The position numbers and the translations under genes were made by a program. From Spirulina subsalsa FACHB-351 (GTDB lineage: Bacteria; Cyanobacteriota; Cyanobacteriia; Cyanobacteriales; Spirulinaceae), in contig NZ_JAIHOM010000045.1 in assembly GCF_026130165.1 (NCBI RefSeq), positions 1-37,555 on the forward strand: a DNA stretch of 37,555 nucleotides, read 5' to 3'. Shown here one piece after another: positions 1 through 3,945 of this stretch (its first letter is position 1; each line of letters opens with the position of its first letter). The notes beneath the pieces are model-generated. The model saw nothing but the letters and a program-made list of their open reading frames with translations, was not told where the DNA came from and did not search any database.

Positions 1-134
1 CATTAAGTACGGTAGGGCATACCGGATCTAAAGCTTGGGGAGATTTGCCCTCTAGCCTGGTTGGAGCAATCCTGCTAGGTTATGGCGAGTCTGTGAACCA
101 AGAATCCTCGTGCCTTTAGGCCGAGGAGTGTCAA
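1..134 (+). mobile_element. Probable 3' remnant of a TnpB-type IS200/IS605 element
   Basis: There is no open frame of useful length here. The stretch closes with a hairpin (110-134: AAGAATCCTCG, loop around CTTTAGG, CGAGGAG) that ends in TGTCAA, which is how many cyanobacterial tnpB-only elements end. The 100 bases before it are GC-rich and structured, as expected for the omega-RNA that overlaps the tnpB 3' end. The tnpB body would lie left of the window, so this is inference. Near-identical solitary hairpins occur at 8759-8800 and 31666-31702. Confidence 0.45.
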
Positions 135-199
135 AATCTCGGGCAATCAAGGCGCGGGGATTCTTCTCTCAAGGAATCATCGCCCGATATGACTGGAGT

Positions 200-252: not shown

Positions 253-1653
253 ATGTCCAAGCAGAATGAAACCAAAACCCTTTTAATTGCCTTCCTGCTC
301 ACCAGTGCCGTGTTAGTGGGAGGGGTTTGGTGGGTGCGAGAATCGGGGATTTTGATGGGTTTGATCGATTCTCCCAACGGCCCTGGGACATCACCTCTAG
401 GGGCTTCCCGGTCGGCTGTGGCTTTGAGTGGGGGGGAGCAATTGCTGCTCGGGGGAAGTTCAGACCTTCAGGGGGCGGTTGAATTAATTGCAAATCGTCA
501 ATATAGCCAAGCGGTTCAACAGCTAGAGGCTTTTCTACAACAGAATCCCAATGAGCCGGAAGCCTTGATTTATCTCAATAATGCCCGCATTGCTCAAGGT
601 CGTTCCTATCCCATTGCGGTGGCGGTGCCGATTACAGGGAGTGAGAATTCCGCTAAGGAAATTTTACGGGGGGTGGCTCAAGCGCAACAGGAAATTAACC
701 AACGGGGGGGCATTAATGGGGTTCCCCTCAAGGTGATTATTGCCGATGACCACAATAGCCCGGAGATGGCGCAACAGGTAGCTGAGGCTTTGGTGAAAAT
801 GCCGGAAATTCTGGCGGTGGTGGGGCATTTTAGTAGTGATGTGAGCCAAGCGGCGGCGGCGATTTATCAACAGCAGGGTTTAGTGATGATTTCTCCCTCT
901 AGTACCTCTGTTACCTTGTCCCAAGCGGGAAATTATATCTTTCGCACGGCACCGAGTGATGCGTTTACGGCTAAGGCGTTGGCTCAGTATCAATTGACGG
1001 AATTAAATCTCAATCAGGCGGTGATTTTTTATAACGGCCAGAGTGATTATAGTCTGTCGCTGAAGGGACAATTTACAACGGAATTGTTTACCAGTGGGGG
1101 CAGTGTTTTACAGGAATTTGATGTGTCTCTCCCTGATTTTAACCCCAGTGAGGCGGTGGCAGAAGCTCGACAGCAGGGGGCTGAGGTGTTGGTTTTACTG
1201 ACTAATACTCCGACGCTGGATCAAGCGTTACGGGTGATTCAACTCAATCGTCAAGGGTTGCCTTTGTTGGGGGGGGATAGTCTCTATAATCCCCGATTGT
1301 TACAAGTGGGGGCGCAGGATGCTCAGGGGATGGTGGTGGCGGTGCCGTGGCATATTTTAGCCCATCCCGATGCTCCCTTTACTCGGACTTCGGCGCAATT
1401 GTGGCGGGCGGAGGTGAACTGGCGGACGGCGATGGCCTATGATGCGACTCAGGCGTTGATTGCGGCGTTGGGGGAAACGCCTACTCGGTCGGGGGTGCAA
1501 GGGGCTTTAGGTCGTTCAGGATTTACGACGGCCGGGGCTTCGGAGGTGATTCGGTTTTTGCCGTCGGGCGATCGCAATCAAGCGGTCCAACTGGTGGAAG
1601 TCGTACCCGGAACTCGTTCTGGGTTTGGTCAAGATTTCAACCCAATTCCCTAG
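253..1653 (+). CDS. Membrane-anchored ABC-type substrate-binding protein (branched-chain amino acid/receptor family)
   Basis: This 466-residue protein has a short N-tail (MSKQNET), one hydrophobic segment at about residues 9-28 and a Gly/Ser-rich linker. A TPR-like helical hairpin follows at about 73-113 (QAVQQLEAFLQQNPNEPEAL), then a type I periplasmic-binding fold from about 120 to the end, with the typical IAVAVPITG start and GVAQAQQEINQRGGINGVPL. Known members of this fold bind amino acids, amides or urea outside the membrane. Here the anchor looks uncleaved, so the domain probably stays tethered in the periplasm. It is first in a three-gene operon, 24 bases before a close paralogue. No permease or ATPase gene is adjacent, so a sensory or receptor role is as likely as transport. 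The ligand cannot be read from the sequence. Confidence 0.85.
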   Translation: MSKQNETKTLLIAFLLTSAVLVGGVWWVRESGILMGLIDSPNGPGTSPLGASRSAVALSGGEQLLLGGSSDLQGAVELIANRQYSQAVQQLEAFLQQNPNEPEALIYLNNARIAQGRSYPIAVAVPITGSENSAKEILRGVAQAQQEINQRGGINGVPLKVIIADDHNSPEMAQQVAEALVKMPEILAVVGHFSSDVSQAAAAIYQQQGLVMISPSSTSVTLSQAGNYIFRTAPSDAFTAKALAQYQLTELNLNQAVIFYNGQSDYSLSLKGQFTTELFTSGGSVLQEFDVSLPDFNPSEAVAEARQQGAEVLVLLTNTPTLDQALRVIQLNRQGLPLLGGDSLYNPRLLQVGAQDAQGMVVAVPWHILAHPDAPFTRTSAQLWRAEVNWRTAMAYDATQALIAALGETPTRSGVQGALGRSGFTTAGASEVIRFLPSGDRNQAVQLVEVVPGTRSGFGQDFNPIP

Positions 1654-1677
1654 TAATTTCCACGGAAAGCAGCAATC

Positions 1678-3048
1678 ATGACTCAAAAAAACGAAACTAA
1701 AATTCTCTTACTCTCCCTTGTCGTCACCGGAGCGCTCTTAGCTGGGGGCGGATGGTGGGTCTATCAGGCGGGTTTCTTGGGTGGGAATACTAGCGTAACG
1801 GGTGGTCGGGGTTCAGATGGTAATTTAAGCGCGGGGGGGAAACTCTTAACCCGAGACGCACCGGAGAAACGGGCGGCGGTGGAGGCGATCGCCCAAAATG
1901 ACTTTTCCGGTGCCGTGAGTCGCTTGGAAGCCTATCTGCAAAACAATCCCAATGATCCCGAAGCCCTGATTTATTTAAATAATGCCCGCATCGGCAACCA
2001 AAATGTCCCCACCATTGGGGTGGCGGTGCCGATTACCGGAAACCTTGATGCGGCTCAGGAAATTCTCCGGGGAGTGGCCCAAGCGCAAAAGGAAATTAAT
2101 GAGCAGGGCGGGATTAATGGCACTCCCTTAAAGGTGATCATTGGCGATGATCAAAATACCCCCCAAGGCGCTAGTAGTTTAGCCCGCGCTTTTACCCGTG
2201 AACGCCTCTTAGGGGTGGTGGGACATTTCAGTAGTGAAAATAGCCAGGCCGCCGCTTCAGTTTATCAAGAGTCGGGTCTGGTCATGATCTCCCCCACTAG
2301 CACATCTGTTCCTCTTGCCCAAAGTGGTGACCATATCTTCCGCACTGTTCCCAGTGATGCTTTTACGGCTAAGGCGATGGTGCAGTATCAACTGAATGTT
2401 TTAAACCAACAACGGGCGGCTGTGTTTTTTAATAGCCAAAGTGACTACAGTCAGTCGTTGAAAAATCAGTTCACTCAAGAACTGTTTTCCAGTGGGGGGA
2501 ATGTGGTAGGGGAGTATGATGTATCGAGTAACTTTAATGCTCGTAATGCTCTGCAAGATGCCCAAAGTAAGGGCGCTCAAGTGCTGATTTTAGCCACTAA
2601 CTTTAATACCTTGGATCAAGCGGTGCAAGTGATCCAAGTCAATGATCGCAATCTGCCTCTATTGGGGGGAGATAGCCTCTATACGCCCCGTTTGTTACAG
2701 TTAGGGGCTGATAATGCGGTGGGGATGGTGTTGGCTGTGCCGTGGCATATTGACGGGAATCCTAACGCGGGGTTTGTGACTCGTTCCCGTCAACTGTGGC
2801 GGGCGGATGTGAACTGGCGCACGGCGATGGCCTATGATGCCACTCAAGCCTTGATTGGGGCCCTGCGACAAAATCCAACCCCCCAAGGGGTTCAACAAAC
2901 TCTGAGTAACCCCAGTTTCCAAGCGAGTGGAGCGGCGGCGGAGATTCGTTTTTTGCCTTCGGGCGATCGCAATCAAGCCGTACAATTAGTTAAAGTAGAG
3001 GCAGGCTCTCGCTCTGGATTTGGTTATGATTTTGTTCCCCTACCTTGA
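1678..3048 (+). CDS. Membrane-anchored ABC-type substrate-binding protein, paralogue of the preceding gene
   Basis: The 456-residue product repeats the architecture of its upstream neighbour: N-tail MTQKNET, hydrophobic anchor at about residues 9-28 ending in GGGWW, Gly-rich linker, TPR-like segment at about 66-106 (LEAYLQNNPNDPEALIYL), then a type I periplasmic-binding domain. The two align along their whole length, with shared stretches such as VNWRTAMAYDATQALI and EIRFLPSGDRNQAVQLV, so they arose by tandem duplication. The linker and parts of the ligand-binding region differ, which leaves room for different ligands. The start is 24 bases after the previous stop and the stop is 6 bases before the next gene, so co-transcription is very likely. 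Confidence 0.85.
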   Translation: MTQKNETKILLLSLVVTGALLAGGGWWVYQAGFLGGNTSVTGGRGSDGNLSAGGKLLTRDAPEKRAAVEAIAQNDFSGAVSRLEAYLQNNPNDPEALIYLNNARIGNQNVPTIGVAVPITGNLDAAQEILRGVAQAQKEINEQGGINGTPLKVIIGDDQNTPQGASSLARAFTRERLLGVVGHFSSENSQAAASVYQESGLVMISPTSTSVPLAQSGDHIFRTVPSDAFTAKAMVQYQLNVLNQQRAAVFFNSQSDYSQSLKNQFTQELFSSGGNVVGEYDVSSNFNARNALQDAQSKGAQVLILATNFNTLDQAVQVIQVNDRNLPLLGGDSLYTPRLLQLGADNAVGMVLAVPWHIDGNPNAGFVTRSRQLWRADVNWRTAMAYDATQALIGALRQNPTPQGVQQTLSNPSFQASGAAAEIRFLPSGDRNQAVQLVKVEAGSRSGFGYDFVPLP

Positions 3049-3054
3049 GGTTTT

Positions 3055-3945
3055 ATGACCGCGAAAAATGAAACCCTGCCCCTGATTCTCTCCTTCGTCA
3101 TTACCGCAGGTATTCTCGGCGCTGGCTATTGGTGGTTTACCCGTTCTGCTAATACTCCCCTAGTGGGCGATTCTAACCCCACCTCGTCCCCCAATCCCGC
3201 GCCAGCCTTTGCCGCACCTGTCACCGTCCCTAGTGGCACGATTTTACGCCTTGATGGGGCCACCAGTTTAGCGCAAGTGAATGTCGCCCTGAAACGCGGC
3301 TTTGAGGAAAAATTTGCTGGAACTTCGGTGACGCTACAAGCCAATGGTAGTGAACGGGGGTTAACTTCCCTCCTAGCGGGCAGTATCGACATCGCCGCCC
3401 TATCTCGACCTTTAACGTCCCAAGAACAAGCCCAGAACTTAGTGGCGGTTCCAGTCACTGAAGATGCGATCGCCATTATTATTGGAGTTAACAACCCCCT
3501 GCGCACCGGATTAAGCTCTCAACAAGTGCAACAAATTTTTACCGGACAACTCACCAACTGGTCCCAAGTGGGGGGACAAAACAGCGAAATTCGGGTCATT
3601 AACCGTCCCGACCATAGCGGCACTCATCAAGCCTTTAAAGAGATAGTGTTACAAGGTCAATCCTTCGGCACCACCCCCAACATTACCACCCTCATCAACG
3701 ATGAAACCACCGGATTAATCCGTCAACTTGGCGACAATGGCATTGGTTACGCCACCTACGCTCAAGTTGCCACCCAACAAACCGCCCAAGTTTTACCCAT
3801 TGACGGGACTACTCCCCAAGCGGCCACTTATCCCTATAAACGAACACTGTTTTATGTCTATAAAAACCCCCCCAGTGAAGCCGTCAAAGCCTTTTTAGGC
3901 TACAGCACCTCGGGCGAAGGCAAAAGTTTAATCGGTAATAGGTAA
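3055..3945 (+). CDS. Membrane-anchored PstS-like substrate-binding protein
   Basis: This 296-residue protein has the same anchor as the two genes before it (MTAKNET, hydrophobic stretch to about residue 27, then GYWW) and a Pro/Ala/Ser-rich linker. A type II periplasmic-binding domain of the phosphate/PBP-like-2 kind follows. Features of that fold are the opening LRLDGATSLAQVN, the SRPLTSQEQAQ segment, VFTG-like QIFTGQLTNWSQVGG and RPDHSGTHQAFKE. Known relatives bind phosphate or related oxyanions. The fold is unrelated to that of its neighbours, so the common anchor must come from domain shuffling and argues for a shared membrane partner. It overlaps nothing and follows the upstream stop by 6 bases. 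No pstCAB genes are present. Confidence 0.82.
   Translation: MTAKNETLPLILSFVITAGILGAGYWWFTRSANTPLVGDSNPTSSPNPAPAFAAPVTVPSGTILRLDGATSLAQVNVALKRGFEEKFAGTSVTLQANGSERGLTSLLAGSIDIAALSRPLTSQEQAQNLVAVPVTEDAIAIIIGVNNPLRTGLSSQQVQQIFTGQLTNWSQVGGQNSEIRVINRPDHSGTHQAFKEIVLQGQSFGTTPNITTLINDETTGLIRQLGDNGIGYATYAQVATQQTAQVLPIDGTTPQAATYPYKRTLFYVYKNPPSEAVKAFLGYSTSGEGKSLIGNR

Follow-up and report, generated by a model that had tools for sequence, protein, structure and literature searches.

A common membrane anchor on periplasmic binding proteins of two folds in Spirulina subsalsa FACHB-351, and its possible coupling to a zinc-ribbon protein kinase

The stretch of DNA analysed here (the window, 37,555 nucleotides; RefSeq contig NZ_JAIHOM010000045.1) is a complete contig (C59) of the 5.26-Mb genome assembly of Spirulina subsalsa FACHB-351, and it ends 252 bp before the first of three consecutive genes for periplasmic binding proteins (Table 1), whose open reading frames (ORFs) and gaps of 24 and 6 bp are as reported in a preliminary description made from the letters alone. 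As also noted there, the three proteins begin in the same way, with NET as residues 5–7, a hydrophobic stretch and then VGGVWW, GGGWW and GAGYWW, respectively. Pfam assigns Peripla_BP_6 to genes 1 and 2 (E-values 8.5e-39 and 4e-39) and PBP_like_2 to gene 3 (1.4e-39), and the AlphaFold2 models of genes 1 and 3 (mean pLDDT, the predicted local distance difference test, 91.0 and 89.7) consist of a single N-terminal helix (residues 6–30 and 7–31, respectively), a linker of low confidence and a soluble domain. Two type I domains and a PstS-like type II domain were thus rightly recognised. The TPR-like insert proposed inside the binding domain was not, since the TPR-like part (residues 70–113 in the model of gene 1) precedes the domain as a leader, and its match to TPR_19 (20.8 bits) is under the Pfam cut-off of 25. 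Three independent orphan genes can also be ruled out, because genes 1 and 2 are duplicates with 60% identity, which leaves two lineages.

Table 1. Positions of the genes, anchors and other features (in the window unless a locus is given)
Feature	Position	Strand	Details
Gene 1 (P0001), anchored type I periplasmic-binding protein	253..1653	+	466 residues; Pfam PF13458 at residues 120-451
Gene 2 (P0002), tandem duplicate of gene 1	1678..3048	+	456 residues; Peripla_BP_6
Gene 3 (P0003), anchored PstS-like type II binding protein	3055..3945	+	296 residues; PF12849 at residues 62-287
NET/GGxWW anchor of gene 1 (residues 1-29)	253..339	+	Profile E 3e-12; helix 6-30 in model
NET/GGxWW anchor of gene 2	1678..1764	+	Profile E 5.2e-17
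NET/GGxWW anchor of gene 3	3055..3141	+	Profile E 4.6e-15, only type I anchors in the profile
TPR-like three-helix leader of gene 1	460..591	+	Helices 70-80, 84-97 and 102-113 (AlphaFold2)
High-copy repeat at contig start, upstream of the operon	1..135		39 other places among the matches listed (own genome)
Decayed four-Cys kinase gene, membrane segment still open, upstream of an anchored PstS-like gene	L251 5803-6513		

The best solved folds for gene 1 are those of LivK, LivJ and γ-aminobutyric acid (GABA)-binding proteins, and in the alignment, part of the ligand-contact region in proteins of this type is similar to that of LivJ. A LivK/LivJ-like Peripla_BP_6 fold places genes 1 and 2 in the type I group; their scores against the NCBIfam branched-chain model (93.1 and 90.6 bits) are far under its cut-off of 477. 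In the case of gene 3, the best Foldseek matches (9l8j, 4q8r, 1twy and 4gd5) have the type II fold of the PstS family, and the score against the NCBIfam PstS family model (129.7 bits) is under the cut-off of 206.6. The alignments show that gene 3 retains the pocket motifs G-[SA]-T-S, G-S-x-x-G, S-R and R-x(3)-S-G-T, among which are presumably the residues that contact phosphate. These motifs are also present, as judged by eye, in most of the 25 aligned second-type PstS-like relatives, those departing most from them being L107_7, L160_7, L163_5 and L191_5. Gene 3 has 15 named relatives in public genomes, all with cyanobacterial names.

The shared start can be written as a module, M-S-Q-K-N-E-T followed by one helix and GGG-x-WW. 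A profile was built from 30 type I anchors, excluding the window and its genus and including one badly trimmed peptide (L170_4), and was run on the 1191 unique ORFs of the fetched loci. The three anchors of the window are matched with E-values of 3e-12 to 5e-17, so the similarity in the preliminary description holds statistically, and the PstS-like anchor of gene 3 is recovered by a profile made of type I anchors only. Outside the training set, 40 ORFs are matched at E up to 1e-5. Binding proteins make up 36 of them (30 PstS-like and 6 type I), and the remaining four are a WD40 protein (L159), an OmpA-domain protein (L161) and two ORFs of 73 (L158) and 96 (L162) residues; the next match of any other kind has an E-value of 0.06. 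Furthermore, the BLOSUM scores among the three window anchors are 74–90, compared with 39 for the best of 184 other ORFs having an N-terminal hydrophobic stretch (four ORFs with the same motif were set aside). The profile E-values and this comparison rule out that the similarity is a property of any N-terminal helix. Since the loci had been fetched for holding binding proteins, whole genomes were searched too, and 31 of 39 relatives were matched by a profile of 25 rows, which combined type I with PstS-like anchors; 68 of the 71 places of this profile (E up to 1e-5) lie in frames that are also matched by genes 1 or 3, as judged by eye. With these relatives and 35 of the 146 genomes in a sample of the phylum, the anchor is found well beyond this operon.

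The 73-residue ORF lies in the window's own genome (contig C177; L158 218-439, minus strand), adjoins a sigma factor-like gene and has a clear NET anchor followed by what is, as judged by eye, the apparent start of a WD40 repeat; it seems to be a broken gene. The anchored WD40 protein of genome G017 has 382 residues (L159 4990-6138). The protein at L161 3431-5005 combines a NET-like anchor, a weak NMT1-type match (below the Pfam cut-off) and an OmpA C-terminus, possibly a link to the cell wall.

Moreover, a second anchor type, SGPPPIV...GGGYWW (PPIV-type), precedes the same binding domains. Among the unique ORFs of the fetched loci, which were picked by similarity and are not a random sample, the type I proteins have 46 NET, 5 PPIV and 3 other anchors, and the PstS-like proteins have 43, 16 and 9, respectively. 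By these counts, heads and anchors have recombined. In Mastigocoleus testarum, a stretch of about 4.5 kb (L018 2374-6906) encodes three gene-3-like proteins whose anchors are of the PPIV type or related to it.

A likely partner of the NET anchor is found in the gene neighbourhood of relatives. In genome G001 (same genus, 2 contigs), the trio is preceded on the same strand, 65 bp upstream, by a gene for a zinc-ribbon serine/threonine kinase (P0004, locus L089), which has a four-Cys zinc ribbon, a Pkinase domain and C-terminal hydrophobic segments. This kinase was found in 34 of the 39 relatives, and in 14 of these 34 genomes the start of an anchored gene follows it on the same strand at a distance of at most 1 kb, where chance placement would give 0.0068; for this count 71 anchor-profile rows were kept and the 10 weakest (E above 1e-5) dropped, and in one of the 14 (G027) the adjoining kinase is a second one with 41% identity. 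Depending on the genome, the head encoded downstream of the kinase is either type I or PstS-like. Of 20 further stretches taken from the phylum sample, 9 likewise have the kinase beside anchored genes. In addition, 23 of 33 kinase loci, counted without the duplicates L178, L181 and L184, have an rbcR-like LysR gene no more than two genes away from the kinase; by eye, NnrU-like and thioredoxin-like genes often occur further upstream (L101, L105, L107, L160 and other kinase loci).

The two elements also go together at the level of genomes. With cut-offs of E = 1e-6 for the NET anchor and 1e-90 for the kinase, 35 genomes of the phylum sample carry the anchor and 41 the kinase, and 34 of the 35 anchor-bearing genomes have the kinase (Fisher test, which here and below ignores shared descent, 3.7e-25). 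The association is seen again within the order (50 genomes; [[31,4],[1,14]], p = 4.4e-8) and in the 39 relatives ([[31,3],[0,5]], p = 9.7e-5), these samples overlapping with one another. Of the 14 genomes that carry the PPIV-type anchor, 8 have the kinase and 6 lack it (p = 0.30), so in the 146 genomes the link to the kinase is specific to the NET type. In G148, the single anchor-bearing exception, the remains of a kinase gene precede an anchored PstS-like gene (Table 1). The zinc ribbon of this decayed gene is damaged, an in-frame stop is present and most of the catalytic part is gone, but the membrane segment is still open as a frame of 136 residues; the next ORF, about 350 bp downstream, is the anchored gene. 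The proposal in the preliminary description that one membrane partner serves different receptors is thus supported by a candidate kinase, which precedes the trio in G001 and tracks the anchor across genomes, and to which the anchor would dock.

Both folds also occur in one chain with signalling modules. A kinase, one hydrophobic helix and a type I head are joined in L169, L171, L173 (Pfam) and L189, the last of which has a start resembling that of the four-Cys kinase and shares 56% identity with P0004 across 319 residues. The corresponding fusions with a PstS-like head are L261, L267 and L268, all in genome G036. CHAT domains are combined with type I heads in L168, L170 (with a second weak hydrophobic segment) and L277, and with PstS-like heads in L259 and L017; in L258, which has a PstS-like head, the CHAT match is just under the Pfam cut-off and no helix is above the threshold. 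As both folds are fused to kinase and to CHAT, they are heads of signalling modules of the same kinds. Two further proteins were noticed in the window's own genome. One (contig C29; L175 7121-8755, minus strand) has 544 residues, with cysteine in its N-terminus, a stretch that is hydrophobic by eye and a type I domain sharing 34% identity with gene 1, and a kinase-like gene (777-2543) lies in the same stretch of DNA; the other (contig C272; L176 6485-11197) has 1570 residues, a type I binding-like start and, by eye, a nucleotide-cyclase-like end.

Genes for transport are not regular companions. The census of neighbours covers 126 proteins beside 37 anchored clusters (one of 38 listed loci yielded none), counting ORFs of 100 to 900 residues other than the binding proteins; it contains 14 kinases and 10 LysR regulators, and no ATP-binding cassette (ABC) transporter family has at least two members in it, with single cases possible beyond the 25 of 142 families listed. 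The adjacent permease or ATPase of an ABC substrate-binding protein was thus not found as a feature of these clusters. In the window, the next two genes downstream of the trio, on the opposite strand, are for DUF1257 and an AAA ATPase, and the earlier remark that no permease is adjacent holds on this side; it cannot be judged upstream, because the window is the whole contig.

Comparison across genomes therefore suggests that the anchored proteins do not belong to nutrient pumps and act as interchangeable sensor heads for a protein kinase in the membrane. Considering the shared anchor on both folds, the co-occurrence and synteny with the kinase and the serine/threonine kinase fusions of both folds, we assume, with a probability of about 0.6, that the three proteins are membrane-tethered nutrient receptors coupled to a kinase and not transporter subunits, the anchor being their common plug to the zinc-ribbon kinase. 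The NET-helix-GGxWW module would hold each binding domain in the periplasm and, as the same plug, would let heads of different fold engage the zinc-ribbon kinase; in relatives, the gene for this kinase, with its C-terminal membrane domain of several predicted helices, lies immediately upstream. Binding of a ligand, which might resemble an amino acid in the case of genes 1 and 2 and be phosphate or another oxyanion of this kind in that of gene 3, would close the domain, and the closure could then pass inwards via the anchor and the membrane domain of the kinase and alter the cytoplasmic kinase activity towards its presumed targets; the anchored proteins would presumably never feed a transporter. 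More tentatively, and with somewhat more doubt than belief, the module of about 29 residues may be a docking code, by which any head bearing it plugs into the membrane domain of one serine/threonine kinase, be it of amino-acid type, phosphate type or possibly a WD40 or OmpA-linked binding domain.

Several points weigh against kinase-coupled receptors. A plain membrane-sorting role would likewise conserve the anchor. In 20 of the 34 kinase-bearing relatives, the 1 kb that follows the kinase gene is free of anchored genes, and 7 of the 41 kinase-bearing genomes of the phylum sample lack the NET anchor. The statistics themselves neglect shared descent, and since the kinase search was limited to the 10 best candidates of each genome, it may have overlooked some kinases. 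The membrane segments of the kinase are taken from hydropathy alone, with four in the relative L107 and two above the threshold in P0004. Furthermore, the window's own copy may be uncoupled from the kinase, because the kinase gene in its genome stands at the very end of contig C161 and is cut at residue 357, the membrane half (the C-terminal 146 residues of the G001 kinase) has no match in the own assembly in a search made without a positive control, and the sequence before base 247, where similarity to G001 begins, differs. The contig itself starts with a repeat (Table 1), at least 12 other copies of which begin at base 1 of a contig, and which is probably the end of an insertion element.

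An alternative is that the anchor is a mere signal-anchor or sorting element, which keeps these proteins in one membrane as sensors without docking to a kinase, the synteny arising from shared regulation. The module is indeed short and largely hydrophobic, it also stands on a WD40 protein and an OmpA-domain protein, and in 20 of 34 genomes it does not follow the kinase within 1 kb. We regard this explanation as unlikely, because the co-occurrence is specific to the NET type, with PPIV-type anchors on the same folds occurring with or without the kinase, and polar positions beyond the helix are conserved in the type I proteins (E6 0.79 and T7 0.72). A purely historical origin, in which tandem duplication and domain swapping in the operon left the anchors alike with no shared function, agrees with the duplication of genes 1 and 2 and with the recombination of anchors and heads. 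It is very improbable in view of the presence of the kinase in nearly all anchor-bearing genomes and of the conservation of the anchor (mean majority fraction 0.56 in type I proteins and 0.57 in gene-3-like proteins), compared with 0.19 and 0.27, respectively, in the linker that follows it.

The proteins could also be tethered substrate-binding proteins that supply distant Pst- or Liv-type ABC transporters. For this speak the retained phosphate-pocket motifs and the nearest solved relative of gene 3, Sll0540, which is described as a putative phosphate-binding protein and, according to PMC5053081, was up-regulated alongside Pst binding proteins in one producer strain. We consider such a supply quite improbable, as the census of neighbours contains no recurrent ABC family within the scope given above, and the kinase and CHAT fusions of both folds point to signalling. 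On the assumption of kinase-coupled receptors, candidate receptors and candidate ligand classes can be named for a kinase near an rbcR-like regulator gene. If docking by the anchor is true, it would offer a modular route to several inputs for one kinase, and the anchor could serve as a search key for receptors that are perhaps annotated as transporter parts. If the docking code is true, ligand specificities could be added or exchanged without altering the kinase, and the single-chain fusions would represent this receptor with its head hard-wired to the kinase.

The heads themselves are related to known proteins. Genes 1 and 2 share the fold and part of the ligand-contact region with proteins of LivK/LivJ type (PDB 3td9, 1z15 and 3ip5) and differ from them in an identity of about 22%, in the added N-terminal helix and TPR-like leader and in that no permease genes were found beside them in the sequence covered. 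Gene 3 belongs to the subfamily of Sll0540 from Synechocystis sp. PCC 6803 (PDB 9l8j), with 53% identity over 239 columns and a TM-score of 0.93 on the target. In PMC5053081, Sll0540 is a fourth potential phosphate (Pi)-binding protein, proposed by BLAST; it is thus known as a Pst-type binding protein by similarity, and its anchor is not comparable because the solved chain starts after any N-terminal anchor.

Regarding the kinase, cyanobacterial serine/threonine kinases with an ANF domain (cbSTKII) are listed in Table 1 of PMC2176072 (CwatDRAFT_0902, alr0344 and Ava_2791). They join a kinase to a type I domain, as do the single-chain fusions found here; genes 1–3, among whose Pfam matches there is no kinase family, are not of this kind. 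The survey lists single-chain proteins, and separate anchored heads, PstS-like heads and a shared anchor are unmentioned in the part available. No match to a known Spk protein was achieved for the zinc-ribbon kinase; SpkB differs in domain make-up, because it is listed there with pentapeptide repeats, and it would be a guess that the kinase is among the cbSTKI-TM kinases of that survey (SpkF and alr3706). In the literature searched, mostly without subscription journals and with sources that were partly accessible, no description of the shared anchor or the split arrangement was found (PMC2176072, PMC11863333, PMC10651672, PMC3610870, PMC11221513 and PMC5053081). Thus, neither the anchor module nor the split form nor fusions with a PstS-like head were found in this literature, whereas the single-chain combination of kinase and ANF domain is already listed.

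The nearest known arrangement is GlnH-GlnX-PknG of Actinobacteria, in which, according to PMC6069109 and PMC9769921, a membrane-held periplasmic binding protein controls a serine/threonine kinase via a membrane protein. The likeness is that the genes are co-conserved and a binding domain is used for sensing; in the cyanobacteria, kinase and anchored genes are adjacent in 14 of 34 genomes and co-occur in 34 of 35. In that system the binding protein GlnH is a lipoprotein, and GlnX, which has four membrane segments and two periplasmic domains, is a protein in its own right. The candidate membrane elements here are the C-terminal hydrophobic segments of the kinase, as seen in hydropathy, and the anchor helix: the cyanobacterial head brings a membrane helix of its own, the membrane domain belongs to the kinase, and the heads are of two folds. 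The best reading of this comparison is that the anchored proteins may work like GlnH-GlnX-PknG, which is meant as the closest parallel and not as a system to which they are assigned.

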